Source: Phytoactinopolyspora halophila (GTDB lineage Bacteria; Actinomycetota; Actinomycetes; Jiangellales; Jiangellaceae). From it: 64,000 nt of DNA. Position numbers and translations under genes: made by a program. The notes under the pieces are model-generated. The model worked only from the letters and a program-made list of their open reading frames with translations. It did no database searches and was not told the DNA's origin. Location: assembly GCF_003287285.1 (NCBI RefSeq), contig NZ_QMIG01000001.1, positions 248,001 to 312,000 on the forward strand. Direction: 5' to 3'. This document shows, piece after piece, positions 1,395 to 45,343 of this stretch (position 1 is the stretch's first letter; each line of letters opens with the position of its first letter).

Positions 1395-2540
1395 TTATTG
1401 CGTGACGAGTGTCAGGTTCCACGCGTTCAGCATCGGGTTGACCGGCTGGAAGTAGGTCTGCGGCCGACCACCGGAACCGCAGAAGCCAGAGCCGCCAGAC
1501 GTGACGCCCTGGGCGTTGATCCCCGCCGCGATGAACGACCCACCGGAGTCACCCGGCCGGGCGCAGGCACTCGTCCGGGTCAGCCCGCGCACCGGGCCCT
1601 GCGAGTAGTTCACGGTCTGGTTGTAGGCCTCGATCTGCCCGCACCGGTAGCCGCTGGTCCGCCCGGACCGGCAGGTCGTCGCGCCGATCGGCGCCACGTC
1701 CGAACCGTTCACCTGCGCGTAAGTGCCGTTCCAGCGGGACACCTGGGAGGTCACGCTCCAGTTCTGATTGACCGAGACGTACGCGCCGTCCGAGCCCGGG
1801 AAGACCGACCGCTCGAAGACACCTTGCGAGGCACCGTTGTAACCCGTGGTCGGCGTGCCCACGTTTCCACAGTGCCCGGCGGTCACGAACCCGCGCGGTT
1901 GCACCGCGAAGCCGACCGAACACCCGGAGCCGGGAACGTCGTAGGCCGTCCCGCCAACCACGTCGTAGAACGGCTCGGGAACCGTCTCCGTGGTCTCGAC
2001 CTCGACCAGATCCGCGTCCACGCCGGTTTCCGCAAGCCACTCTGTCGCGGCGTCGTGGGCTCCCTCGGCCGCCTCCACGACGACGGTGTTCGCGGGGACG
2101 TCCACATACCAGCTGTACACTTCGGACGCGTCGGGGGCTTCCGCGTCGTCGAGAGTGGACACGACGTCGGAGAGCTCGTCCGTGCTGTGCTCGACCAGCC
2201 GCGGCGTCGCCCCGGCCCGGCGGACGTCGGCGGCTGCACGCCGGTCGGAGACCGCCACCACCAGCTCGCCGTCATCGATCCATGCTCCGACCTCGGACTC
2301 GTCCAGGGTTTTCTCCAGCCGTTCCTGGGTGTGCATCGCCTGGAGGTCGCTGGCGAACACCTCGATGGCTTCTTGCCTGCTCAGGTCGAGATCACGCTCG
2401 GCCGCGGCGAGCATCTCCGGTGTGGCCAGTTCAGCGACATCCACGTCGTCGCTGGCGGTCGCGCTCGATGTCGTGGTGAGCGCGATGACGACACTCGCGG
2501 ACAGGGTCGCCGCCGCGAGCTTGTGCACTCGTCGATCCAT
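1395..2540 (-). CDS. Secreted S1 serine protease with alpha-lytic-type prodomain (streptogrisin-like)
   Basis: A 381-residue pre-pro-protease. Residues 1-30 form a Sec signal peptide ending near SSATAS. Residues about 35-190 form the alpha-lytic/streptogrisin prodomain, which acts as a folding chaperone in this family. The mature chymotrypsin-fold domain starts near residue 193 and carries the triad His223 (TAGHC), Asp251 (PGSDGAY) and Ser332 (RPGDSGGS). Three Cys pairs are positioned as in streptogrisins. There is no C-terminal anchor, so the enzyme should be released. An SD-like AGGAGA precedes the ATG. It stands alone between the DUF58 gene and a sugar ABC operon. It differs from the anchored proteases at 32-40 kb, which carry stalks and sorting signals. 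Confidence 0.93.
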   Translation of the reverse strand: MDRRVHKLAAATLSASVVIALTTTSSATASDDVDVAELATPEMLAAAERDLDLSRQEAIEVFASDLQAMHTQERLEKTLDESEVGAWIDDGELVVAVSDRRAAADVRRAGATPRLVEHSTDELSDVVSTLDDAEAPDASEVYSWYVDVPANTVVVEAAEGAHDAATEWLAETGVDADLVEVETTETVPEPFYDVVGGTAYDVPGSGCSVGFAVQPRGFVTAGHCGNVGTPTTGYNGASQGVFERSVFPGSDGAYVSVNQNWSVTSQVSRWNGTYAQVNGSDVAPIGATTCRSGRTSGYRCGQIEAYNQTVNYSQGPVRGLTRTSACARPGDSGGSFIAAGINAQGVTSGGSGFCGSGGRPQTYFQPVNPMLNAWNLTLVTQ

Positions 2541-31225: not shown

Positions 31226-31285
31226 CATTCGTTCGGGCAGGGGCACCCGCGCGACGAGCGCGATCAAGCTAGGCTGGTGTCCCAC

Positions 31286-32140
31286 ATGGACAGAGAAATC
31301 GCGAGCCGGCGCCGACGGACCACGCCGTGGTCACGGTCGATGCTGACCCTCGGCGTGGCGACGATGGCCGTCGCCATTTCGGCCACGTTTGTCACCGCCG
31401 TCTCCGGCCACAATCCGCTCCACTACCTTGCGGGGTCGGATTCGACCGGCACGGGGCTCGCGTCGCCTGTCCGGCCCCCGTCGGCGTCGCTCGGTCCGGA
31501 TCGTGCAGACCGGCGCGGGCAGTCCCGCGGGATGGGGGCGGAACTGCCCATCACCGCCTCGGTGTCCGGACCGGAGGTGAACGGCCGCACCCAACCGGCA
31601 CCGGTGGAGCCACCCGACGCCGGCACGGGCGAGTACGAGATCGTACCCGGCGACGACGCGCCGCCCGAGGACGGCTCGGGGGAGACGATACGATATATCG
31701 TCGAGGTCGAAGGTGACCTGCCGTTCGACGCCGACGAGTTCGGCTCCGACGTTCACACCATCCTGAACGATGAGCGCGGATGGGGACACGAAGACAACAT
31801 GCGCTTCGCCCGCGTCGACAGCGAACCCGTTGCGTTCCGCGTCTCGCTTTCCAGCCCGGATCTCACGGATGATCAATGTTATCCGCTACTCACCCGGGGC
31901 AAGGTCTCGTGCTGGAACGGAACCCGCGCCGTGATCAATGCGCTGCGCTGGGGAGCCGGAGCCGACACGTACGACGGCGACATCCTCAGCTATCGCGAGT
32001 ACTTGATCAACCATGAAGTCGGGCACGCCCTCGGTCACGGTCACGCGAACTGCCCCGAGGACGGCGCGCTCGCGCCCGTCATGGTCCAGCAGTCGAAGTC
32101 GCTGGAAGGATGCGAGCCCAACCCGTGGCCATCGCGCTGA
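31286..32140 (+). CDS. DUF3152 protein, membrane-anchored putative metalloprotease
   Basis: A 284-residue protein. One N-terminal membrane helix (residues about 18-42) is followed by a Pro/Gly-rich linker and a DUF3152 domain (about 125-284). It contains HEVGHALGHGH, the zincin-like HExxHxxGxxH pattern expected for a zinc peptidase. Four Cys in the domain (CYPLL, CWNG, CPED, CEPN) could form disulfides outside the cell. ATG 31286 was preferred over a GTG three codons earlier. Proteolytic activity of this actinobacterial family is unproven to my knowledge. Confidence 0.85.
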   Translation: MDREIASRRRRTTPWSRSMLTLGVATMAVAISATFVTAVSGHNPLHYLAGSDSTGTGLASPVRPPSASLGPDRADRRGQSRGMGAELPITASVSGPEVNGRTQPAPVEPPDAGTGEYEIVPGDDAPPEDGSGETIRYIVEVEGDLPFDADEFGSDVHTILNDERGWGHEDNMRFARVDSEPVAFRVSLSSPDLTDDQCYPLLTRGKVSCWNGTRAVINALRWGAGADTYDGDILSYREYLINHEVGHALGHGHANCPEDGALAPVMVQQSKSLEGCEPNPWPSR

Positions 32141-32560: not shown

Positions 32561-32612
32561 CCGTCTCTCCCGGCGTTGTCCGGCACAAAATTGCTGGTCA
32601 GATACAAAAACA

Positions 32613-32647
32613 AGTGGTCCGCCCCGGATGTTCCGGGGCGGACCACT
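32613..32647 (-). terminator. Rho-independent terminator of the protease array
   Basis: A perfect 16-bp GC-rich stem (32613-32628 with 32632-32647) with a 3-base loop, followed in the minus direction by TTGTTTTTGT. It lies 33 bp past the stop of the first anchored protease gene. This is the most canonical terminator in the window. Confidence 0.9.
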
Positions 32648-32679
32648 CGGATTCTTCAGTAGCGACCTAGGCAGCTACC

Positions 32680-34953
32680 TCAGGCGTTCGTCGCCTGACG
32701 ACGCGCCCGCAGCGCAACCGCGGCACCACCGGCGGCCAGCAGGCCAGCACCAAGGACGATCAGCATGATGTTGCCAGCACCCGTGTCGGGCAGGTCATCT
32801 TCATCGCCGTCGTCGTCGCCGCCGCCAGCAACGACCGTGAACGTGACCGCGTCCTCGGAGTCGGTCAGCTCGGGGTCGCCTTCGGCCGTGGCCTGAGCGG
32901 TCACCGTGTACTCGCCTTCGGTCAGCTCCTCGTCGGGGACGAACGTCCAGTTGCCGTCCTCGTCGATGTCGAACTCGCCTTCCCAGACGCCCATGTCCTC
33001 GTCCTCGACGGTCGAGCCCTCGGACAGCATCTGCGCGGAGGTGTTGTCGCCCTCTTCCCCGGCCTCGGCGGGCTTCAGGATCAGGCTCAGCTCCGCACCG
33101 GCGAAGGCGGTGCCCTCGAAGGTCACGTCACCGGCCACCTCGGCGCCGTCCTCGGGTGCGGTGATGCTCACCTCCGGAAGGCTGATGCCCAGGTCGGTGA
33201 TGGTCACCTCCTGGACGTCCTCGCCGGCGGTCTGCGTCACGGTGGCGTCGAAACGCTCACCACGCGGCAGGTCGCTGTCCGGCTCGATCTCCCAGTCGCC
33301 CTCGTCGCTGACGGTGGCGCCACCGAACTCGTCATCGCCGACGCTCAACGCGACCTCGGCGCCGGGCTCACCGGTGCCCTCGAACGGCGGGCGGGTGTTG
33401 CTGGTGGTCTGCCCATCGCTCGGGGAATCCACGACGAGCTCCTCGGCCTCGGGCTCCTCCGGGGCTTCCTCGACGGTGAAGGAGTCCTCGACAACCTCCG
33501 AGAACGAGTGTTCCGCGTTCCGGCCGTAGAAGGCCTGGGCGGTGAACTGGTACTCGGTACCGACCTCGAGTGCCTCGTCGATCTCGATGACGAACTCGCC
33601 GTCGCCGTCGAGCTCGATGTCCTCGTAGGCGTTCACGCCGTCGACGTGCACGTCCACGTGGTGGTTCGGGCCGGCGTTCTCGACCGAACCCGAGATGGTG
33701 GCGCCCTCTTCGTCGGCGGTCACCTGATCGATCACCGGCTCGTTGACCTCAACGTTCAGCTCCCACTCGGCGCCGAACAGGTCGAAGGCGTTGTACTCGC
33801 CGCTGGAGACCGCGTAGGCCAGCGCGGAGTGCGCCTCAGGATCCCAGTCCCCGCAATCCGACTCTGGAGGCAGGGTGGAACCACCGGAGTTGACACCCAG
33901 CGCGTAGTTGCCGACGACGACCGAGCCGCCGCTGTCACCTCCGAGCACGCAGGCATCGAACGTCGGGCCCGTGGTGGTGGACACCACGTTGCCTTGCCTG
34001 TCCTGCAGTTCCCAGGTTTCTTCCTCGGACTCGATCTCACCGCACGTCCAGCCGGTGGTGGCACCCGAGGAGCAGACATCGGCTCCGACAACGGGGTCGA
34101 TGGAGTCGTAGATGGTGATGGCGCCGTCGGCGGGATTGCCTTGGCCACCGCCCCACTCGGAGACCTGGGGCACGCCAGTCCAGGCATCCGAGGTCACGTC
34201 CACGAGACCACCATCGTGATGCACGTCGACGCCGAAGTGATTCGACCCTGCAACGATCGGGCCGATCTTCTCACCGGCAGCGTCGTCTGGCACCTCGCCG
34301 TTTCCGCCGATGGGCTCGTCGAGGTCGAGGTGGTAGGCGTCCTCGTACTCCTCGCCGGTGCTGAAGTCGGCGAGGCCGCAGTGCCCGGCACTGAGGAAGC
34401 GATCGTTGCCGCCCCCGTCGTAACCCGAGAAGCCGAGCGAGCAACGCGAGTAGATCTGATTGCCGATGGCCATGCCGTAGCCATAGCCACCCTTGAGGTC
34501 TTCGAGGACCTGGTAGTCGCCGTCGTACTCGGGCGTCTCCGGCTCGCCGACCTCGACCGTCGCGCCAGCCACCTCGAGATCGACCTCGGCACCCACGTAG
34601 TAGGTGACATCTTGGCCGTCGATCTCGACGCCCTTGATGTCGACACCGCTGGCCTCGAGACGCTGCGCAGCGTCCGAGGCGACCTTGGTGGCCTCGGCGT
34701 TGGCCAGGTACTCGGCAGGCGAGATGTTCAGATCCCGCTCGATGGCCGTCTGCAGCCCCTCTGGGAGCTCAGCAGCCTGGGAGGCGAACTCGCTTGCGTC
34801 GAAGGGTTCCAGTGTTACTTCAGGTAGGGGTTCTTCTTCTGCTTGCGCGACGCCTGTCGCGGCGACGGCGCCCGTGCCGACGACAGCGGTGGCTGCGATC
34901 ACGCTCGACAGCCGCCTGGCACCGCGCCGGAAGCGGAGCTTGGAGTTACTCAC
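32680..34953 (-). CDS. Cell-wall-anchored S1 protease with Ig-like stalk (LPDTG), paralog 1
   Basis: About 757 residues from a GTG start. Layout: signal peptide (about 1-38), prodomain with LPEGLQTAIERDLNISPAEY (60-80) shared by all three paralogs, S1 domain (about 150-390) with His191 (SAGHCG), Asp247 (HHDGGLV) and Ser341 (LGGDSGGS), two Ig-like repeats (about 405-490 and 500-590, the second with DGQTTSNTRPPF), a third beta domain, an acidic DDDGDEDD stretch, LPDTG at about 721, membrane helix, and RARRQ tail. The GTG is favoured over ATG 34959 because GGAG lies six bases before it, as in paralog 2. Substrate unknown; sortase-anchored on the outer surface. Confidence 0.9.
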   Translation of the reverse strand: MSNSKLRFRRGARRLSSVIAATAVVGTGAVAATGVAQAEEEPLPEVTLEPFDASEFASQAAELPEGLQTAIERDLNISPAEYLANAEATKVASDAAQRLEASGVDIKGVEIDGQDVTYYVGAEVDLEVAGATVEVGEPETPEYDGDYQVLEDLKGGYGYGMAIGNQIYSRCSLGFSGYDGGGNDRFLSAGHCGLADFSTGEEYEDAYHLDLDEPIGGNGEVPDDAAGEKIGPIVAGSNHFGVDVHHDGGLVDVTSDAWTGVPQVSEWGGGQGNPADGAITIYDSIDPVVGADVCSSGATTGWTCGEIESEEETWELQDRQGNVVSTTTGPTFDACVLGGDSGGSVVVGNYALGVNSGGSTLPPESDCGDWDPEAHSALAYAVSSGEYNAFDLFGAEWELNVEVNEPVIDQVTADEEGATISGSVENAGPNHHVDVHVDGVNAYEDIELDGDGEFVIEIDEALEVGTEYQFTAQAFYGRNAEHSFSEVVEDSFTVEEAPEEPEAEELVVDSPSDGQTTSNTRPPFEGTGEPGAEVALSVGDDEFGGATVSDEGDWEIEPDSDLPRGERFDATVTQTAGEDVQEVTITDLGISLPEVSITAPEDGAEVAGDVTFEGTAFAGAELSLILKPAEAGEEGDNTSAQMLSEGSTVEDEDMGVWEGEFDIDEDGNWTFVPDEELTEGEYTVTAQATAEGDPELTDSEDAVTFTVVAGGGDDDGDEDDLPDTGAGNIMLIVLGAGLLAAGGAAVALRARRQATNA

Positions 34954-35235
34954 GCACATCTCCAGTTCTGTGTCATGAACTTCACGTTCCGAATACCTTC
35001 ACCGCTCGTGAGCGGCGATCCGCCAACACTTGCCGACGGACCGGAACCGGGGTCACGCTACCGGACCGAGCCTGTGGATAGCACCTGCCCCCACGCCCTT
35101 TTCTTGATAAACATTTGGTAACGAATCTTGGACCTGCGGATCCTTCTCCAGGGTGTGGCCAGAGAAAATTAGAGATAATCCTGTGACTTGAGTGGCGTAA
35201 TATACCGGATGTCACGGTATTTCCTTTTTGACCCA

Positions 35236-37140
35236 TCAACTAACCCATCCCAACCGGCGCCGCACGGACGCCCACATGCCCACGGCAATCCCCGCACACG
35301 CCAGGCCGACGCCGACGAGTGCCACCGCGTGCCAGTCGACGCCGGTGTCAGGGAGCTCCTCCCCATCACCGCCGGACCCGTCGTCGCCAGGCGCGTCATC
35401 GCCACGGTCCTCCGCCTCGTCCGAGCCGTTGGAGCCGTCGGAGCCGCTACCGGACTCGCCCGGATCACCGTCGCGCCCGTTCTCGGCAGGCTCGTCGTCG
35501 CCGTCTTCGCCCTCGTCGTCGGCGCGCTCGTCCTCGTCGCGCTGATCGTCGACGTCCTCGCCGGGATCGGCCGCAGAACCGTCGCCTTCGGCCGCACCCT
35601 CGGCGTCCGGTGGAGCGCTGGCCTGGAGAGTGCCCTCGACGATGTCGGATCGCGAGTGCACGCCGTAGCGTGCCTGGGCCGCGAATCGATGGACGCCCTC
35701 CGCCGGCCGCGGGTCGTCGATCCTGATGGAGAACGTGCCGTCAGCGGAGATGGCCTCGGAGTACACCTGCTCATCCACACGTACGCCGATGACGTGGTGG
35801 GGCCCCGCATGTTCGACCTCGCCCTCGATCACTGGCGCTCCGGAATCGTCCTGCCTGACCGTGATGTCTGGGGTACTGACGGCGACAGCCAGCTCCCATT
35901 CGCCATCGGTGTAGAACTCGTCCGCGCTGAACCGGCTCCCGGAAAGCGCATAGCCGAAGCTGACGTGCTTTTCCGGGTCCCAGTCCGCACATTGGCCGGA
36001 CTCGGGGCCGCCGGCGCCGCTCAACATGCCCACCGCGTGCGTTCCGGAGACGAACGGGCCGCCGCTGTCGCCGGGAGCGCTGCAGGCGGACGTCAGGAAG
36101 CCGGTGACCGACGCGGAACCGTACTCCACCCCGTAGTCCACCTCGTGATCGACCGCGAGGACCTCGCCGCACTGGTAGCCGCTGGTGATGCCCGAGCGGC
36201 ACACGGGCTGTCCGACGATCGGTGCTGCCTGGTCCGTGATCTCGATCTCGCCAGCGCGGGGATCGCCGTCCCCGCCGTCCCACGTCGTGATGGCGGGTAC
36301 CGGCGTCCAGTCCGGCTCGGTCACCCGGAACAGGCCGACGTCGTGACCGTCCGCGAACTGCCAGGCTCCACCGGAACCGATGCCGAGATCGGCTCCGGGT
36401 TCGGGCCATCCAGGCGTGTCGGGCGTCCACGGCTCTTCGGTCTCGATGTGCACCCAGCGGGTGTCATCTCCAGCATCCGGAAAGCAGTGCCCCGCGGTGA
36501 TCACGACGGGTTCCCCGTCGGTGCTATACCCGTTGAACCCGGCCGAACAGTAACTCGAAAGAGTGCCATCCTCCTGCGGCTCGCCGTATCCGTAGCCGCC
36601 CTTGAACTCGTCATGCGGCACGATCGGCGCGTTCACATCCGGACTCTCGGGTGGCTCGTCGAGCACGACGGCGCCGGTAGCTTCGATCGCCTCCACGCTC
36701 TCGCCGTCGGCGTCGGCCGGCAAGATCCCGAGGGATCCTTCGTCCCTGTCGAAGACGGCGGCCGCGACGCCAACACCCTCCGCGCGCAACGATTCGACCA
36801 CGTGCGACGCTGAGCGGGCCGTGGCGGCATCCGCCAGGAACTCCTCGACCGTGCCCCCGAGATCACGCTCAACGGCCTCGTGCAGCCCAGATGGAAGCTC
36901 CAGGGCCTGGTTCACGAAGTCCAGCGGCTCGAACGTCTGCCACGTCACCGGGAGGTGGATCGCGTGGTCTTCGCTGTCGACATCCGAGGGGATCTCGTCG
37001 GAGGCTGTCGGTTCTCCGTCAGCCGGCACTGCCATCGCCGATCCGGCCAGCGCCGGCATCGCGGTCCCAGCCATCACGGCGACCACCAGGCGGCAGGCAG
37101 CATCTCGGACCATCCGGCGGCGGGGCAAGGTCACACTCAC
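35236..37140 (-). CDS. Cell-wall-anchored S1 protease with acidic stalk (LPDTG), paralog 2
   Basis: About 634 residues from a GTG start with GGAG six bases upstream. Signal peptide (1-38); prodomain with LPSGLHEAVERDL (82-94); S1 domain (about 185-410) with His218 (TAGHCF), Asp267 (DGHDVGLF) and Ser359 (PGDSGGP). Only one Ig-like domain (about 415-505) follows. It is succeeded by some 85 residues of almost pure Asp/Glu/Gly/Ser stalk, then LPDTG at about 596, a membrane helix and a VRRRLG tail. The triad is complete, so it should be active. The acidic stalk probably spans the peptidoglycan. Confidence 0.9.
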   Translation of the reverse strand: MSVTLPRRRMVRDAACRLVVAVMAGTAMPALAGSAMAVPADGEPTASDEIPSDVDSEDHAIHLPVTWQTFEPLDFVNQALELPSGLHEAVERDLGGTVEEFLADAATARSASHVVESLRAEGVGVAAAVFDRDEGSLGILPADADGESVEAIEATGAVVLDEPPESPDVNAPIVPHDEFKGGYGYGEPQEDGTLSSYCSAGFNGYSTDGEPVVITAGHCFPDAGDDTRWVHIETEEPWTPDTPGWPEPGADLGIGSGGAWQFADGHDVGLFRVTEPDWTPVPAITTWDGGDGDPRAGEIEITDQAAPIVGQPVCRSGITSGYQCGEVLAVDHEVDYGVEYGSASVTGFLTSACSAPGDSGGPFVSGTHAVGMLSGAGGPESGQCADWDPEKHVSFGYALSGSRFSADEFYTDGEWELAVAVSTPDITVRQDDSGAPVIEGEVEHAGPHHVIGVRVDEQVYSEAISADGTFSIRIDDPRPAEGVHRFAAQARYGVHSRSDIVEGTLQASAPPDAEGAAEGDGSAADPGEDVDDQRDEDERADDEGEDGDDEPAENGRDGDPGESGSGSDGSNGSDEAEDRGDDAPGDDGSGGDGEELPDTGVDWHAVALVGVGLACAGIAVGMWASVRRRLGWVS

Positions 37141-37426
37141 ACGTATCTCCAGCTCGAACACGAGGAACGCTGACGCGCCGATGTGGCGCGACTCGATAGC
37201 TCAGGTCGGATCTACGCTACGCGCAACAAGGCCCGTACGCAGCAAAGTTGTACGAAGCGAGCGAAGCTTTCCAGAGGCTATTTACGGCATTTCCCGCCAA
37301 ATACGGGCACCCTCGATCGCAAAAATGCGCGATCGGGCCGGAGACGCATGGGCCGTTCGACCTATTCGACGTCCTCGCGAAGGCCGGCGGTGGATCTGGC
37401 GTCCCGCCACAGAACGACGGCCGCGA

Positions 37427-39835
37427 TCAGGCGCCGCGGACCGCTCGCCGCCGCCACCAGAGGCCCACGGAGCCCAGACCGAAGAGGAGGAGACCACCCA
37501 GGATCGGCAGCAAGAGCGACGTCCCCGTCTCGGCGAGATCGTCCTCATCCGCGTCGACGCCACGCCGTTCACCCGTAGGAGGCCCGACGATCTCGAACGT
37601 GACCGACGCCGAACGCTCGGACTTGAGGTCGTCCACCGCCTGGATCGCACTCACCGTGTACCGGCCAGGAGGCAACCCTTCGAGCTCGACCTCCCAGTTT
37701 CCTTCCTCATCCGTGGTGGCGATGCGTTCACGTTCCGACTCCGCGTCGGTCGCGGGCTCCGGCGAGCCTTCCCGCTCCTCCGATGACGGCTGGATACGCG
37801 CCGCGACCGTACTTCCGGGTATGCCCGTTCCCGAGATGACATCGCGGGCGGTGACCTCTCCTCCGGGGCCGACAACCACAGGCGCACCGGGCACGATGCC
37901 GACACCTTCGATCGACGTGTTAGCAGTGCCGCCCCCGGTTTCCTGCGTGATCATCGCGTCGAAGCGGCCCGCGCGGGGCCCCTCCGGAGGGGCGATCGAC
38001 CACGTACCGTCCGCATCGACCACCGTGGAGGTCATCTCGTCGTCGAATTCCAGGGTGATCCGCGCGCCGGGGTCGCCGGTGCCGGTGAAGCTCGGCCGTA
38101 CGTTGCTCGTCGTCTCGCCGTCCGCAGGGCTCTGCACGACCAGGGATGCGACCTCGGCTACCTCGAATGTCTCGGTGACCGCCTCCGAGGTGGTCGCGTC
38201 GCCGGCCAACGAGGGCGCATGTGATGCGGCGACGGTGTAGGTGTGCCGGCCGGGTGAGAGCGATTCCTCGATCGGCGCCCGCCACGTACCGTCCGCTTGC
38301 ACCTCCGCTTCGACCGGCTCGGCCCCGTCCACGTCGACGACGACGGTAGCGCCCGCGGCAGCGTCGACCCGACCCCGGACGGTCGGTTCCTTACCGGTGA
38401 CATCCCCTTCGACCGGAGCGGTCACATCAGGTGTACCCACGTGGACCGCGAGGTTCCACTCGTCGCCGTAACGTTCGCGTACCGTGTCGGGACCACCGGC
38501 CAGGGCGTAGGCGAGCGTGACGGGTTGGCCGGTGGCATCACGGTCGTCCGCCTCGTCACATTCGCTCCCGGCCTGTGTCGACCCCGAGGTGATACCGATG
38601 GCGTAGTTGCCCGACACGACGGGTCCACCCATGTCGCCCGGCAGCGAGCACGCATCGAGCATGAAGCCCGACACCTCCTCGTCGCCGACGGGTACGCTCA
38701 TCTCGGTCCCGAGAACCGAGCCACACGTCCAGTCAGACACCGCACCGGACGAGCACACGGGCGCTCCCGAGATCGGCAGGGTGGAATCGTAGATGGGCAC
38801 CTGTGGCCCTTGTTCGCCTTCGCCCACCTCGGTGGCCACGCTCGGGGTGGGCGTCCAGGCGGTGGTGCTGACAGCCAGCTGGGCAACGTCATGGCCATCG
38901 CCGATTCCGATGCTGTCCTCGACGAACCGGGCAAAGGGCCCGGTTTCCCCATCTCCGTGATCGTCGGGATCATGGCGGTGAACGTCGTCGCGCTGCTCGT
39001 CCAAGTTCGGGGGGTCAGCGGTGTCTTCGTGCCCGTCGCCGCCGTCTTCGTGCCCGTCGCCGTCCTTGTCGGAGTCCTGCTCGGAGGCTCCGGACGACAG
39101 CAGGCCGTCGAGCAGTCCGACAACTCCGTCCAGCAGCCCGGACTCACCCTGGCTGCACTGTCCGGAGGTCAGCGTGCGTGGGTTGCCGTCCGGGCCCGTC
39201 CCGTTGAATGCCGCCGTACACCGAAAGACGGAATCCCCTTCGACGATTCCGTATCCGAACCCTCCGTGCACATCTCCCTCGGGCTGGGCTCCGTTCTGGT
39301 CCGGATCGTGCTCCTCCTCGTACGGGCCCCCCGTGAACTCGGCTTCCAGTGGACGCACACTGTCCGTCTCGCGATCGGCGATGGCCAGGCGGCCCTGCTG
39401 GCGAGCGGCGTCGACCGCGTCGGTGAGGGAATCTCCGACGTGAACCTCGGCACCAGTAGCAGCGGCGGCCGGCTCGTCAGCACGGTCCTCGACGACGACA
39501 TGGAGCGTCGATCCGTCGAGCCAGGCCGCGGTAACGATGTCGCCCAACTCGTTCACGACGTCAGCGGCGTTCTTCGCGGCCGCCGCCTGGGCGAGATAAC
39601 GTTCGGGCGAGACGTCCAGATCGCGTTCGATGGCTTCGACCAGGCCGGGAGGAAGGTCGTCAGCTTGTTCTTCGAAATCAGCAGTGTCGTACTCGTGCAT
39701 CCGCACGTCCGCGACGGGCGAGTCTGCTGAGCTGGCATCATCACTGGCCGTGGCGCTGCCCAACGTAGTTGCAAAGATCAGTGATGACGCCACACTCGTG
39801 AGCGCGAACCGCCTACCGACCGCTGCAACGCTCAT
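37427..39835 (-). CDS. Cell-wall-anchored S1 pseudoprotease (LAETG), paralog 3
   Basis: 802 residues from ATG 39835, which has GGGAG six bases upstream. Layout as in paralog 1: signal peptide (1-31), prodomain LPPGLVEAIERDLDVSPERY (61-80), S1-like domain (about 190-450), three beta domains including DGETTSNVRPSF, then LAETG at about 767, membrane helix and WWRRRAVRG tail. The catalytic His is Gln226 (TSGQCS, codon 39160-39158 CAG) and the Ser is Met402 (PGDMGGP, codon ATG at 38632-38630). Asp316 remains. About 70 residues rich in Asp, Gly and His are inserted just after the dead His. It should fold and be displayed but not cleave. Confidence 0.9.
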   Translation of the reverse strand: MSVAAVGRRFALTSVASSLIFATTLGSATASDDASSADSPVADVRMHEYDTADFEEQADDLPPGLVEAIERDLDVSPERYLAQAAAAKNAADVVNELGDIVTAAWLDGSTLHVVVEDRADEPAAAATGAEVHVGDSLTDAVDAARQQGRLAIADRETDSVRPLEAEFTGGPYEEEHDPDQNGAQPEGDVHGGFGYGIVEGDSVFRCTAAFNGTGPDGNPRTLTSGQCSQGESGLLDGVVGLLDGLLSSGASEQDSDKDGDGHEDGGDGHEDTADPPNLDEQRDDVHRHDPDDHGDGETGPFARFVEDSIGIGDGHDVAQLAVSTTAWTPTPSVATEVGEGEQGPQVPIYDSTLPISGAPVCSSGAVSDWTCGSVLGTEMSVPVGDEEVSGFMLDACSLPGDMGGPVVSGNYAIGITSGSTQAGSECDEADDRDATGQPVTLAYALAGGPDTVRERYGDEWNLAVHVGTPDVTAPVEGDVTGKEPTVRGRVDAAAGATVVVDVDGAEPVEAEVQADGTWRAPIEESLSPGRHTYTVAASHAPSLAGDATTSEAVTETFEVAEVASLVVQSPADGETTSNVRPSFTGTGDPGARITLEFDDEMTSTVVDADGTWSIAPPEGPRAGRFDAMITQETGGGTANTSIEGVGIVPGAPVVVGPGGEVTARDVISGTGIPGSTVAARIQPSSEEREGSPEPATDAESERERIATTDEEGNWEVELEGLPPGRYTVSAIQAVDDLKSERSASVTFEIVGPPTGERRGVDADEDDLAETGTSLLLPILGGLLLFGLGSVGLWWRRRAVRGA

Positions 39836-40071
39836 CAACGTCTCCCATGTCCCCGTTCAACTGGCCATTCCTACGAAACCGCGACACTAGCGGACATACC
39901 GGGACTCGCTACACGGTGGGCCAGGTCCCAAACCCGCCTCACATTACCCGGCCGGATCCGAGGACGCATCAAGAACGGAACCGGGCGACATGTTTTCCCT
40001 GTTCACTCAGCATACGCCTGCCGAGTACACAACGGTTCGAATTCAGACATGACCGTCGAAAGTGGGGCATC

Positions 40072-40725
40072 TCACGGAACCATATCGACCAGACGGTCGG
40101 CCCAGACATCGAGAAGTTCACGGTCGTGACTCACAGCGAGCACACCCATGCCGCGCTCGGCGACTTCGTCGTTCACGACTCGTACCAGAGCCGCCGCCGT
40201 GGACGCGTCGAGCATGGACGTCATCTCGTCACATACCAGATATCTCGGCTGCCAGGCCAGCGCCCGGGCAAGACATGCACGCTGCAACTGCCCGTCACTA
40301 ATCTCATGCGCGCGCCGGCTCAGCAGGTCCCGGGCGAGGTCGACCCGGGTGATGAGCTCCACGACGCGTGCCTCCACGTCCCGCTCGGGAGCACCACCGG
40401 AGCGCAGCGGCTCGGCGACCGTATCGGCCACGGTGAACCGGGGATCGACGGACCGCCTGGGGGACTGAAACGTCACACCGACGGCCGTGCGGAGCCGCCT
40501 GGGTGCCCGGTGCCGAACCCGCGTGGCGCACTCACCGTCCAGCTCCACGCGGCCCGACCACGGGGCCAGCAAGAGCGCCAGCACGCGTGCAAGCGTCGAC
40601 TTGCCACACCCGCTCGGGCCAACCAGCCCGACGACCTCGCCTGGCGCTACCGTCACACGCGCCCCGTCGAGTACCGGCTTCTCACGCCGATAACCCACCG
40701 TCACATCCACAGCTGTCAACGACAT
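40072..40725 (-). CDS. Peptide/nickel-type ABC transporter ATPase (second, DppF/NikE-like)
   Basis: A 217-residue ATPase. Walker A is GPSGCGKST (about 35-43), the signature is unusual (ISDGQLQR instead of LSGGQ), Walker B is YLVCDEMTSMLD, and the H-loop SHD is present. It lacks the C-terminal oligopeptide-binding extension of full DppF. Start overlaps the first ATPase by 10 bp. Last gene of the five-gene importer operon. Confidence 0.9.
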   Translation of the reverse strand: MSLTAVDVTVGYRREKPVLDGARVTVAPGEVVGLVGPSGCGKSTLARVLALLLAPWSGRVELDGECATRVRHRAPRRLRTAVGVTFQSPRRSVDPRFTVADTVAEPLRSGGAPERDVEARVVELITRVDLARDLLSRRAHEISDGQLQRACLARALAWQPRYLVCDEMTSMLDASTAAALVRVVNDEVAERGMGVLAVSHDRELLDVWADRLVDMVP

Positions 40726-41651
40726 GCCACCGCTCGCCCTCCGTGCCAGGTCAGAGTCGGATCACCCGAGCACTCGCCGGGCACCCGCCGGTGAAACGCA
40801 CATCCGGACGCGAGCTCCGTCAGGGAGGGCGGGTGCCCGGGTAGCGGTTGCAGGCCACCGGAGGGCAGGGCCGCCAGCAATCCCCGCGTGTAGTCGTGCC
40901 AGGGATCGGCGAGCACCTCCCGGGCCGGGCCAAGCTCGAGCAGCCGCCCCGCGTACATGACGGCCAGATGATCGGCGACGCGCCCGGCCGCGGCCAGGTC
41001 GTGGGTGATGAAGAGCACCGCCCGTCCGGTGCCGGCCACGAAACGGAAGAGATCGACCGTGTGGTCCACGAGCGCCCGGTCGAGCCCGGCCGTGGGCTCG
41101 TCGGCCACGAGAACGAGCGGATTGCCTGCCAGCGCCAGCGCCGTGACCACGCGCTGTGTCATCCCGCCAGAAAGCTCGTGCGGATAGCCGTACAGATCGT
41201 CCGGGTCCAGGCCCACCTGCTGGGCCAGCTCGTCGACCCGGCTGGCGATCTCGGCACCGCCGCCCTCGCTGCCGTGGTGGGCGAGCGCCTCGGCGAGCTG
41301 CGAACGAGCCGTGCGTACCGGGGTGAGATGTGTGCCAGCAGACTGTGGAATCAGCCCGATCCGTCGCCCACGAACCCGGGTGGCCAGTTCGTGCTCCGGC
41401 GCGCGAAGCAGTTCGGTCCGGGCAGCCGCGTCGTCCAGCCAGACCTGTCCACGCACCTGGGCGTTACCCGGAAGCAGCCCGAGAATCGTCGAAGCGAGAA
41501 CGGACTTGCCACACCCGCTTTCACCGACCAGCGCCAGCACCTCCCCTGCTCGCACCGTGCAGGACAGGCCGGTGACAGCGGACACGAACCGGCCGCCGGG
41601 AAGGCGCAGCCGCACCGACAGGTTGTCGAGCTGCAGCACACCGGCCGTCAC
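40716..41651 (-). CDS. Peptide/nickel-type ABC transporter ATPase (first, DppD/NikD-like)
   Basis: A 311-residue ATPase with Walker A GESGCGKSV, Q-loop IPQSAGTHLTPV, signature LSGGMTQR and Walker B LVADEPTAGLD. The C-terminal CAFHRRVPGECSGDPTL carries Cys residues placed like the Fe-S or oligopeptide-associated C-terminal motif of DppD-type ATPases, though with fewer cysteines. GTG start at 41651 overlaps the permease stop as GTGA. Confidence 0.92.
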   Translation of the reverse strand: MTAGVLQLDNLSVRLRLPGGRFVSAVTGLSCTVRAGEVLALVGESGCGKSVLASTILGLLPGNAQVRGQVWLDDAAARTELLRAPEHELATRVRGRRIGLIPQSAGTHLTPVRTARSQLAEALAHHGSEGGGAEIASRVDELAQQVGLDPDDLYGYPHELSGGMTQRVVTALALAGNPLVLVADEPTAGLDRALVDHTVDLFRFVAGTGRAVLFITHDLAAAGRVADHLAVMYAGRLLELGPAREVLADPWHDYTRGLLAALPSGGLQPLPGHPPSLTELASGCAFHRRVPGECSGDPTLTWHGGRAVACR

Positions 41652-42646
41652 GGCAGCTCCTCGGAACGGCGCCTCGGCAGCACGTGATCCCGCCAGGCAG
41701 CTCCACACGCTGCTATCGCGAGCGTCGCCGCCACGAGCATCAACGACGGAAACACCAGCGTCCACCAGGATCCGAGCAGCAAGGACTCGCGCGCCTCGTC
41801 CAGGAGAGTTCCCAAGCTCGCCCGATGCGGCGGCAGGCCGAGGCCGAGGAAGCTCAACGCCGATTCGTGCCATACGGCATGCGGTAACAGCAACGCGGCG
41901 GCGACGACGGCTTGCGGCACGATGGCTGGCACGAAATGCCGGCGAATCACCCAGATGCGCCCGGCGCCACCCGAGATCGCCGCGTCCACGAACTCCCGCT
42001 GGCGCAGTGACAGCACCTCGGAACGGATCAACCGCGCCACCGGCGCCCAGTGGGTCAACGTGATAGACGCCACGATGGCGATCACGTTGCCCCGGTAGAG
42101 CGCGACAATCACGATGCCGAGCAGTAGGTGCGGGATCGCGTTCACGGTGTCCACCAGCCGCATCACGATCCGGTCCACCCACCGCCCGAGCCCGCCAGCC
42201 AGGACGCCGACGAGCACGCCCAGCACGGTGGACAGGATCGCACACGTGCCGGCGATGAGCAGCGAGATACGCAGCCCGGCCGCCGCACGCACGAAGAGGT
42301 CGCGCCCGGCCATGTCCGTGCCGAACGGCTGCGCCCACGACGGCGGCATGCCGGAGGCGGACAGGTCCACGGCGCGCTCGTCGAAGCCAGCCACGATCGG
42401 AACCGCGACCGCGTACGCCACGAGCGCGATCACGACGCCGATCCCGACGGCCAGCCGCTGACGTGCCGACAACCGCAGCCGCGACCGCCGCGCGCGCGTC
42501 CACGGGCGGCCCGCGTCGATCCATCCGTGCTCGTCAGCCGCCGTTTCCCCGGTTCGCTGCGCGGCGTCGGCGGGCGCGCTCGTCTCGTGTGGCCCGCCAG
42601 CCCTGCCGGGCGACGTTCGCTTCGTCCGAGCCGCGGCGTCACCCAT
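41648..42646 (-). CDS. Peptide/nickel-type ABC permease (DppC/NikC-like)
   Basis: A 332-residue permease: charged N-terminal tail, first membrane helix near residue 75, periplasmic loop with PSWAQPFGTDMAGRDLF (the GTD-x-x-GRD motif of DppC/NikC), and five further helices with EAA-type loop EFVDAAISGGAGRIWVIRRHFVP. ATG 42646 overlaps the partner permease by 8 bp. Confidence 0.93.
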   Translation of the reverse strand: MGDAAARTKRTSPGRAGGPHETSAPADAAQRTGETAADEHGWIDAGRPWTRARRSRLRLSARQRLAVGIGVVIALVAYAVAVPIVAGFDERAVDLSASGMPPSWAQPFGTDMAGRDLFVRAAAGLRISLLIAGTCAILSTVLGVLVGVLAGGLGRWVDRIVMRLVDTVNAIPHLLLGIVIVALYRGNVIAIVASITLTHWAPVARLIRSEVLSLRQREFVDAAISGGAGRIWVIRRHFVPAIVPQAVVAAALLLPHAVWHESALSFLGLGLPPHRASLGTLLDEARESLLLGSWWTLVFPSLMLVAATLAIAACGAAWRDHVLPRRRSEELP

Positions 42647-43664
42647 CGGTTGCCACCCGAGGATCCAGGACGGCGTAGAGAACATCGGCAAGCAGGGAGC
42701 CGAGCAGGACGGCCACCGCGGCGAGGAGCGTCAGCGCCGCGAGGAGGGCGAAATCGACCTCGACGGCCGCCCGCACGACGGCGTCGGCCACGCCTGGCCA
42801 GGAGAACACCGATTCCACCAGGATCGCTCCCGTCACGAGCTCTGGCAGCCGCACACCAACCAGGGTGACGAAAGGCAACAGGGCCGTCGGCAGCGCATGG
42901 CGCAAGACGATCACCGGAAGGGGCAGGCCCCGTGCCCGGGCGCCGGTGACATAGTCCTCCCCCAGTGCCGCGATCATCGACTGCCGCACGTGCAACAGCA
43001 ACCAGGGAACCTGAGAACAGGCCAGCACGCTGGCCGGCAACGCCATGTGCGTGACGACCTGGCCGAACGTCACATCCGCGCCGGGCTCCGTGAGCCCGGC
43101 GACGGGAAACCAGGACAACCCCAGGGCGAAGATCCCGATCGCCGCCAGAGCCACCACGAACGGAGGGATGCCCTCGACGGCATGGGCCAGGCCGGCCACC
43201 AGGCGGTCCAGCATTCCGCCGTGCCGCCACGCCGACCACACTCCGAGGCACAACGCGACGACGATCGCGAGCGCCAGAGCAGTCCCGGCCAGCAGCACTG
43301 TCCACGGCAGCCGCTCGGCCAGCACGTCGACCACGGGCTGCCCGTACACGCGCGACGTACCCAGATCGCCGGACAGCAGCGTCGTCACCCACTGGCCGTA
43401 CTGGGCATACCACGGGTCATCCAGGCCCAACGTTCCACGAAGCCGCTCCTGTTCGTCCGCGCCAGCAGTCAGGTAACGATCACCGAGATAACCAGCAAGC
43501 GGATCGAACGGCGACGCCGCCGCCAGGACGAAGACGATCACCGATGTCAGCGCCACGACCGGCACCATCATCACCAGACGGCGCAGCACCATCCAGCCGA
43601 TCGCGCGACGCCGGTCGGCTCGCGTCACCGACCGCATCAGGAAGCGATCGGCCTGCGCACACAC
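42639..43664 (-). CDS. Peptide/nickel-type ABC permease (DppB/NikB-like)
   Basis: A 341-residue permease with six membrane segments, the DppB-type N-terminus (RRLVMMVPVVALTSVIVFVL), the long periplasmic loop with LGLDDPWYAQYGQWV and GDLGTSRV, and cytoplasmic ALGEDYVTGARARGLP. GTG 43664 was used; ATG 43637 lacks a ribosome site. It follows the binding-protein gene by 50 bp. Confidence 0.92.
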   Translation of the reverse strand: MCAQADRFLMRSVTRADRRRAIGWMVLRRLVMMVPVVALTSVIVFVLAAASPFDPLAGYLGDRYLTAGADEQERLRGTLGLDDPWYAQYGQWVTTLLSGDLGTSRVYGQPVVDVLAERLPWTVLLAGTALALAIVVALCLGVWSAWRHGGMLDRLVAGLAHAVEGIPPFVVALAAIGIFALGLSWFPVAGLTEPGADVTFGQVVTHMALPASVLACSQVPWLLLHVRQSMIAALGEDYVTGARARGLPLPVIVLRHALPTALLPFVTLVGVRLPELVTGAILVESVFSWPGVADAVVRAAVEVDFALLAALTLLAAVAVLLGSLLADVLYAVLDPRVATDG

Positions 43665-43714
43665 TCCGTCATCACCAGTTCCCCGTCGTCGCGGCGCGCG
43701 TCACCGCCGGCAGC

Positions 43715-45343
43715 TCACTCGTCATCGGCATGCCAATCGGCGACGTTCCACCACGGCCCCCACGACACCCCGTGCGCATGGGGCTCGACGATCGGCCGCA
43801 TACCGGCCCAGCCACGGTCCCGCATGACATAAGTGTGGTCGAGGAACGCGAGCATCACATACGCCGGATCATCGACATATTCCTGCTGCACCTCCCGATA
43901 CGACTCGACCCGGCGCTCATCGTCCACGCTGTTCCGGCCTCGATCCAGCGCATCGTCGACCGCATCGTTGCGGTAGGCACTCGGATTCAGGAACGGGTTG
44001 GTCTCGTCGTAGTCGGCGTATTGCGAGTGCAGTGCCGTGTACACCTGGGGATCGGGGTCGAACGGGAACTCGCCCCCGCCGAGCATGCCGGCGTCGTCGG
44101 GAATCCTGGGGCGAAACTCCGTGCGGTCGACGGCCTCGAGTGACACCTCGATCCCGATGCCGCGAGCATCGGAAACGAAGGCCTGCCCCAGGTCGCGACG
44201 TATGGTCTCGTCGGGGAAGTACATCAGGGTGAACTCGGCGCGCACACCGTCCTTCTCCCGGACGCCGTCGTCCCCCTCGGTCCAGCCGGCCTCGTCGAGA
44301 AGCCGCCGTGCGGCCTCGGGGTCGTGCTCGAACACCGCTCCGGGGTCGTGATACTCACCGAACACTTCCGGTATCGGTGTGTACGCCGGAACGCCGTATC
44401 CGGCGAGCACCGCATCGATCATCGATTCACGATCGACGGCGAGGTTCAGCGCCTCGCGGATGTCGCGGTCGCCGGTGACGGGATGCCCGGACGGCATGGT
44501 GACACCTCGCCAGTCGGCACTCGGGTACGTCACCACATCGACGCCGTCCACCTCGTCGAACGTCTCGGCGAGCTTCGGGGGCAACCACGCGCCGTCGAAA
44601 TCTCCGGCCTGCATTCGTTGGGCACGCGTGTTGTCGTCCGGCGCGATCGCGACGGTCAGCCGCCGCACCTCTGGTGCACCACCCCAGTAGTCGTCGTTCG
44701 CTTCCAGGACCACCTGCTCGCCACGTCGCCACTCCGCCAGCTCGTAGGGACCGGTCCCGATCGGCTCGGTGTTGAGCGCGGACTCTTCGACCGGCACGGG
44801 ATCGTCCAGCGCCTCTTCGGGGGCGATACCCAGCAGCATTCGCGTGTCGAACGCAGCATAAGGGGATGCCAGGTGAAACCGGACGGTATGCTCGTCGACC
44901 TTCTCCACCTCGTCGAGCATCGCGTACGCCGTCGCGAGCGGCGAGGCGTATTCGGGGTCCAGGACCGCCTCGAACGTGGCCACAACGTCGTCGGCGTCGA
45001 ACCGCGAGTCGTCGTGAAACCGCACGTCGTCACGCAGACGCACGGTCCACTCGGTGGCGTCATCGTTGACCTCCGGCATGTCCGCGGCAAGTGCCGGCTC
45101 CAGCGCCGGCGTCCCGTCCGCGTCAGCGGTCAGGCGGAGCAGGCCATCATAGATTTTCGAGGATCCATCCTCGCCGTGCCCGCCGATGGGGTTGAATCCC
45201 TCGGGCTCGAAAGAGTCGGCGAGAACCAGCTCGTCGTCAGGTGCGTTGGCGTCGTCGCCGGATGGATCGCCACACGATGTCACGAACAGTGCAGTCACGA
45301 ACAGTGCACCAATGACCAAAACGGAATGAGCCAGGCGTCTCAC
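43715..45343 (-). CDS. Family 5 substrate-binding lipoprotein (peptide/nickel importer)
   Basis: A 542-residue SBP_bac_5 protein. Lipobox VTSCGDP (Cys about 24), then LVLADSFEPEGFNPIGGHGEDGSSKIYDGLLRL, VRLRDDVRFHDDSRFDADDVVATF and the YDETNPF stretch. These are typical of the nickel/metallophore-dipeptide branch, but substrate choice cannot be proved by sequence alone. GTG 45343 has GAGGG just upstream. First gene of the operon; a perfect ArsR-type palindrome lies 15 bp upstream, which supports a metal or metal chelate as substrate. Confidence 0.9.
   Translation of the reverse strand: MRRLAHSVLVIGALFVTALFVTSCGDPSGDDANAPDDELVLADSFEPEGFNPIGGHGEDGSSKIYDGLLRLTADADGTPALEPALAADMPEVNDDATEWTVRLRDDVRFHDDSRFDADDVVATFEAVLDPEYASPLATAYAMLDEVEKVDEHTVRFHLASPYAAFDTRMLLGIAPEEALDDPVPVEESALNTEPIGTGPYELAEWRRGEQVVLEANDDYWGGAPEVRRLTVAIAPDDNTRAQRMQAGDFDGAWLPPKLAETFDEVDGVDVVTYPSADWRGVTMPSGHPVTGDRDIREALNLAVDRESMIDAVLAGYGVPAYTPIPEVFGEYHDPGAVFEHDPEAARRLLDEAGWTEGDDGVREKDGVRAEFTLMYFPDETIRRDLGQAFVSDARGIGIEVSLEAVDRTEFRPRIPDDAGMLGGGEFPFDPDPQVYTALHSQYADYDETNPFLNPSAYRNDAVDDALDRGRNSVDDERRVESYREVQQEYVDDPAYVMLAFLDHTYVMRDRGWAGMRPIVEPHAHGVSWGPWWNVADWHADDE

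Follow-up and report, generated by a model that had tools for sequence, protein, structure and literature searches.

A predicted wall-anchored S1 protease and its neighboring paralog, apparently inactive in one clade, form a conserved gene pair in the Jiangellaceae

We find that two genes encoding paralogous chymotrypsin-fold proteins, here called P3 and P1, are the conserved unit of a Jiangellaceae gene array, and that the triplet in which they occur in the source genome is not. P1 and P2 (the gene that lies between the pair in this genome) are best read from their sequences as wall-anchored proteases. P3 has the same build, and in the source genome it has almost certainly lost catalysis. We give an even chance to the overall reading that the array consists of active, sortase-anchored surface proteases together with a paralog that, in the clade of the source genome, now acts as a non-catalytic partner.

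Three neighboring genes of common build

The window, meaning the whole stretch of 64,000 nucleotides that we analyzed (C12:248001-312000), belongs to the 5.04 Mb draft genome, 99% complete, of a soil actinomycete. The original prediction placed three neighboring minus-strand genes between positions 32680 and 39835, and open reading frames are present there as described. The upper limit fits the ATG of P3 at 39835, which is immediately preceded by a TTG that is the other candidate start (from 39838). The relevant features of the window are listed here.

32680..34959, minus strand: P1, 759 aa, predicted to be an S1 protease of the active type; prodomain (N-lobe) at about 50-140, followed by S1 at about 155-400 and an Ig-type stalk that reaches to about 710; catalytic residues His193, Asp249 and Ser343; C-terminus with LPDTG at 723-727, TM and basic tail
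35236..37161, minus strand: P2, predicted active-type S1 protease, 641 aa; GHC at 224-226, GDSGG at 364-368; stalk made up of a single Ig-like segment and an acidic, Gly-rich stretch; LPDTG at 603-607
37427..39838, minus strand: P3, predicted pseudoprotease, 803 aa; GQC at 226-228, GDMGG at 401-405; His57-Asp102 loop 88 residues long, acidic and His-rich; Ig-type stalk; LAETG at 768-772
39158..39160, minus strand: codon CAG in P3, giving Gln where the catalytic His would be
38630..38632, minus strand: codon ATG in P3, giving Met where the catalytic Ser would be
32611..32649, minus strand: strong terminator-like hairpin, 18 pairs with a T-run, just 3' of P1
29748..31160, plus strand: released-type S1 protease, 470 aa, full prodomain (PF02983); for comparison, outside the array
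1395..2540, minus strand: released-type S1 protease, 381 aa, full prodomain (PF02983); for comparison, outside the array

The genes would be transcribed in the order P3 (39838-37427), P2 (37161-35236) and P1 (34959-32680). No terminator-like hairpins were found on the minus strand between them, and this, together with the hairpin after P1, allows a single transcript without proving one. All three proteins have the parts originally described: a hydrophobic N-terminus, a prodomain with the shared LPxGLxxAxERDL motif, an S1 domain, an Ig-like or acidic stalk, and a sorting motif (LPDTG in P1 and P2, LAETG in P3) followed by a hydrophobic helix and a basic tail.

The two released-type S1 genes had also been recognized in the original prediction, and both match the Pro_Al_protease and Trypsin families. 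Directly after the one on the plus strand lies a gene for a DUF3152 protein (31277-32140, plus strand; PF11350, E 1e-41) with the matrixin-like zinc protease motif HEVGHALGHGH; homologs of either gene were not seen in the array loci of relatives. Directly upstream of P3 is a complete oligopeptide ABC transporter operon (40072-45343, minus strand) encoding an SBP_bac_5 protein, two permeases and two ATPases. We considered whether array and transporter form a conserved operon, and we rejected this candidate: the transporter operon lies near the array in the source genome and in three Phytoactinopolyspora only (G004, G007 and G014), and its orientation differs in G014.

Assignment to the alpha-lytic protease group

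By sequence, P1, P2 and P3 are assigned to the S1 chymotrypsin fold and to its alpha-lytic/streptogrisin branch, with P3 filed as a pseudoprotease homolog. In sequence searches against solved structures, all three match NAPase, Thermobifida protease A, Cellulomonas protease and alpha-lytic protease; homology of the S1 domain was detected by phmmer to NAPase (2oua) and TFPA (2pfe), with E values down to 1e-14 when a profile was used. The best solved relatives of the array are 2oua, 2pfe, 2ea3 and alpha-lytic protease. The array shares with this group the S1 fold, the N-lobe of the prodomain and, in P1 and P2, the GHC-D-GDSGG signature. It differs in lacking the PF02983 C-lobe of the prodomain, in having 45-58 residues rather than 26 in the His57-Asp102 loop, in the added Ig or acidic stalk and sorting signal, and in the predicted catalytic death of P3. 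The prodomain difference is visible in hhalign comparisons with 49 released-type prodomains, in which the first half (N-lobe) alone aligned (probability 95-96%). The C-lobe is absent from P1-P3 and from their aligned relatives, but each of the two released-type S1 proteins in the window has it.

In the AlphaFold model of P1 the S1 domain has moderate confidence and resembles alpha-lytic protease in Foldseek (TMt 0.79, rmsd 3.7). The S1 domain of P3 is poorly modeled (pLDDT below 50), and we therefore withhold structural claims about it. The stalks of P1 and P3 are predicted with high confidence as beta-rich, Ig-type domains; they are homologous and comparable, at about 300 residues each. Consequently, the proposal that the three stalks differ in length holds for P2, with its single Ig-like segment and acidic, Gly-rich stretch, but not for P1 against P3, and the further proposal that the proteins stand at different depths is not supported.

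The pair, not the triplet, is conserved

Each of the 20 well-complete family genomes (the source genome and 19 relatives from the genera Jiangella, Phytoactinopolyspora and Haloactinopolyspora) has members of the array, which were absent in two small family genomes that are 75-81% complete. In 18/18 genomes that carry the two genes on a single contig, P3 precedes P1 on the same strand, with varying genes on either side. In one further genome (G001) a contig break falls between the two genes, and in another (G009) P3 was not found and the contig ends upstream of P1. The adjacency is direct except in the source genome and one Phytoactinopolyspora (G004), the only two genomes that have P2 as a separate gene, where it lies between P3 and P1. 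The original expectation that the tandem would be kept in relatives is thus upheld for the pair but not for the triplet.

Two observations concern related genes. The P2 ortholog of G004 (L035:7821-9413, minus strand) has an intact triad and would be released, since no sorting signal was found at its C-terminus in any frame examined. Jiangella and Haloactinopolyspora have a second, lone P1-type gene elsewhere in the genome (L054-L067), with S1 domains that are more uniform than those of array P1.

Catalytic residues are lost in P3 of one clade

The GDMGG of P3 aligns onto the GDSGG of solved proteases. Because P3 of the source genome is without the catalytic His and Ser (residues Q-D-M in place of the triad), at most two of the three proteins can be classical proteases, and the original description of three anchored proteases has to be amended accordingly. 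Triads are intact in 22/22 array copies of P1, 2/2 of P2 and 14/14 lone P1-type copies, and in 12 of the 19 P3 sequences; these counts leave out one wrong ORF (L065) that had been taken as a P1-type row (H-Q-R). Comparing 38/38 intact P1, P2 and lone copies with 12/19 P3 in a Fisher test gives 2e-4, a value that serves as a guide only, as the sequences are related.

The seven compromised P3 proteins read Q-D-M (the source genome), R-D-G (one), H-D-G (four) and H-S-S (one). Six of them, from the source genome and five Phytoactinopolyspora, form one clade with support of 100/100, and the seventh, from a Jiangella (G011), is nested among active copies, which implies at least two independent losses. 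The His57-Asp102 loop is deformed in exactly these seven proteins: it has 45-58 residues in all intact anchored copies of the family, 75-88 in the clade of six, and 23 in G011. The long loop of the clade is of low complexity and rich in Asp/Glu (28-36%). Metal binding by this loop was suggested by its six His residues in the source genome; this candidate is not supported, the His count ranging from 1 to 6 in the same loop across the clade. The catalytic Ser codon is AGC in 12/12 intact P3 genes and TCG in G004, where the Asp is lost (H-S-S), which suggests that the Ser position has been free to change in that clade.

Loss of the triad has not been accompanied by loss of the gene. Reading frames are open in all 19 P3 genes, at 737-853 aa. 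For one pair of dead P3 genes (G010 and G012) dN/dS comes to 0.29 overall and to 0.36 within S1, as calculated from divergent pairs and similar to the values of active pairs. At about 0.3, this ratio indicates purifying selection on dead P3.

A variable catalytic domain in a constant frame

P1 shows a mosaic pattern of identity. Between two Jiangella (G006 and G015) its prodomain is 72% identical and its stalk and anchor 81%, with only 41% in the S1 domain; for P3 of the same two genomes, identity in S1 is 71%. The P1 S1 domains of G001 and G006 are nearer to P2 of the source genome (52%), and the branch leading to this G001/G006 type measures 2.77 in the S1 tree versus 0.099 in the stalk tree. 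Sliding identity along P1 falls near the start of S1 and recovers after S1 in one pair of genomes and after the first Ig domain in another. The two tandem P1 copies of G010 share 52% identity in S1 but 83% in the stalk. The S1 domain of P1 thus looks like a cassette that has been exchanged, or has undergone directed diversification, within a constant frame of prodomain and stalk. Exchange may have produced the mosaic, though rapid divergence could explain part of it.

Predicted anchoring to the cell wall

The original prediction depended on the presence of a sortase gene, and this check was passed. Two sortases of the source genome belong to class E, scoring 208 and 203 bits against a cut-off of 160, and a further, class F-like enzyme falls below the cut-off. 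A class E sortase is present in 20/20 well-complete family genomes. In the source genome P1, P2 and P3 each have an LxxTG-type motif, hydrophobic helix and basic tail; among shuffled tails of the same composition, a full sorting signal arose in 2 of 30,000 trials. PF00746 matches 16/16 P1-type proteins, and LPDTG is found in all P1 copies with complete C-termini. P1 is very probably anchored, and we predict covalent attachment to peptidoglycan for all three proteins.

In P3 a recognizable LxxTG motif is missing in 10 of 19 proteins, mostly from Jiangella, in which the membrane helix and basic tail are kept; P3 would then be only membrane-anchored in most Jiangella. All six compromised P3 of the source-genome clade have kept their sorting signals. 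Most sorting signals of the source genome are LPDTG. Class E sortases have been reported to prefer LAXTG (PMC5148588), which the LAETG of P3 fits. The suggestion that LPDTG and LAETG proteins are handled by different sortases follows from motif logic only and is neither supported nor contradicted by our results.

We also note that one class E sortase gene of the source genome has, at a distance of about 3 kb, a gene for an LPDTG protein (about 800 aa) in which a metzincin-like HELGHELGLEHHG motif occurs (G000:C25:300870-304212; L165, L001). An LPDTG protein of 800 aa is likewise encoded near a class E sortase in G005 (C266, L072).

Relation to known systems

A full-length profile matched 29 of the 395 genomes of the class, and the matches outside the family cover S1 and at most some neighboring residues, not stalk and anchor. 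Proteins composed of signal, prodomain, S1, stalk and LADTG are nonetheless encoded in Arthrobacter sp. NIO-1057 (L096:7278-9464) and in a genome of another genus (G023, L161:3868-6054), and these homologs rule out an architecture unique to Jiangellaceae. Like the array proteins, they combine a signal, a prodomain whose relationship is clear in Arthrobacter, an S1 domain with its triad intact, a stalk and an anchor; they differ in being single in the examined locus, in having a PTE-rich or Ala/Pro-rich stalk, and in that no dead partner was seen. On this sequence evidence, anchored S1 proteases are a wider actinobacterial kind, and the tandem with P3 is particular to Jiangellaceae as far as we have searched. 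A second tandem S1 arrangement was noticed in a different family of the class, where two S1 genes that lack sorting signals lie side by side (L068, L162, L163 and L164; G051, G339, G111 and G395).

In the literature that we searched there was no description of a wall-anchored (sortase/LPXTG) streptogrisin, alpha-lytic or chymotrypsin-like protease. The original view that anchored S1 proteases with prodomains were undescribed fits that search, but it has to be tempered by the LADTG homologs and by an S1 family peptidase of Streptomyces africanus (WP_086565138.1), for which tail anchoring was shown by reporter assay (PMC10924467). The latter is likewise an actinobacterial S1 protein with a C-terminal membrane helix, but its listed C-tail has no sorting motif, and that work presents it as a single, Tat-dependent protein. 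Streptococcal sortase-anchored S8 subtilases (PMC9082167) are also held on the cell wall by a C-terminal sorting signal; they have the subtilisin fold and are without tandem S1 paralogs or a dead partner.

The nearest working analogue, though not a relative, is the clostridial Csp system, in which the CspB protease is accompanied by the pseudoproteases CspC and CspA; CspC of Clostridium difficile has two triad mutations, and the C. perfringens ortholog is competent (PMC4619724). As with P3-P1, an active protease has a pseudoprotease paralog, and lineages differ in whether the orthologous partner is competent or carries two triad mutations. Csp proteins are of subtilisin fold, located in the spore and independent of sortase, as opposed to the chymotrypsin fold of the array, and the case for P3-P1 consists of adjacency and selection, not of regulation.

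What P3 may do beside P1

We envisage that P1 and P2 are exported as pro-enzymes. Their prodomain, of N-lobe type, is a probable folding aid that the S1 domain of the same molecule then probably cuts off. The mature enzyme would be carried on its Ig or acidic stalk and joined to peptidoglycan by a sortase, most likely of class E, since the source genome has just class E enzymes and the class F-like one. Exchange or diversification of the P1 catalytic domain as a unit would alter cleavage specificity and leave display unchanged. P3 would be an old paralog, kept upstream beside P1, that lost catalysis and retained fold, stalk and anchor; its most likely role would be that of a non-catalytic surface partner of P1, which may bind a substrate, an inhibitor or P1 itself, or assist P1 maturation. 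Adjacency, retention of the fold and selection together point to such a partner working without catalysis in this clade, and we put the chance of this at somewhat below even. As P3 is intact in 12 of 19 cases, catalytic loss is not family-wide, and the function shared across the family may not need it. The adjacency could also stem from tandem duplication and little rearrangement, though the flanks do rearrange.

A dead S1 fold might instead have been reused as a binding domain, as in azurocidin-like S1 homologs, in which case P3 would recognize an environmental ligand or a metal and work independently of P1. The long acidic loop beside the lost active site in the six compromised P3 and the continuing purifying selection would suit an independent surface binder, but this reading accounts poorly for a gene order kept in 18/18 testable genomes while the flanks change, and the loop is of low complexity and inconstant in His content. 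We consider it rather unlikely. That P3 is a decaying paralog, its function lost in this clade and the gene heading to a pseudogene, we judge quite improbable. Its lesions do differ between neighboring species, the G004 gene combines an Asp change with the TCG serine codon, and the sorting motif has been lost in most Jiangella P3, yet the frames remain open in all 19 genes, the dead pair G010/G012 is under constraint in S1 as well as overall, and the clade of six has retained both its sorting signals and the synteny of the pair.

An ordinary expansion of nutrient proteases is an unlikely account as well. P1, P2 and P3 would here be surface digestive enzymes feeding the nearby oligopeptide ABC transporter, and the changes in P3 incidental. 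The Dpp/Opp-type operon directly precedes P3 on the same strand (45343 to 40072) and has counterparts near the array in the three Phytoactinopolyspora named above, but no transporter genes were found next to the arrays of Jiangella and Haloactinopolyspora, those of G014 have the opposite orientation, and a dead P3 is left unexplained. We continue to prefer a non-catalytic partner of P1 as the reading of P3.

Implications

Joining these strands, the array may represent a wall protease with an exchangeable cassette that is controlled or aided by a dedicated neighboring paralog, a pseudoprotease in one clade, making a protease/pseudoprotease pair of chymotrypsin fold on the bacterial surface; we offer this as a tentative proposal that is somewhat unlikely to hold in full. 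Bacterial pseudoproteases with known active partners are few, and the examples in the literature that we examined are subtilisins. Because orthologs of P3 at the same locus are predicted to be active in some species and dead in others, the role of the pseudoprotease would be testable by swapping them. The constant frame and variable catalytic domain of P1 would amount to a natural display scaffold for proteases in this family. The sortases serving it are probably of class E, for which enzymes as substrates have received little study.
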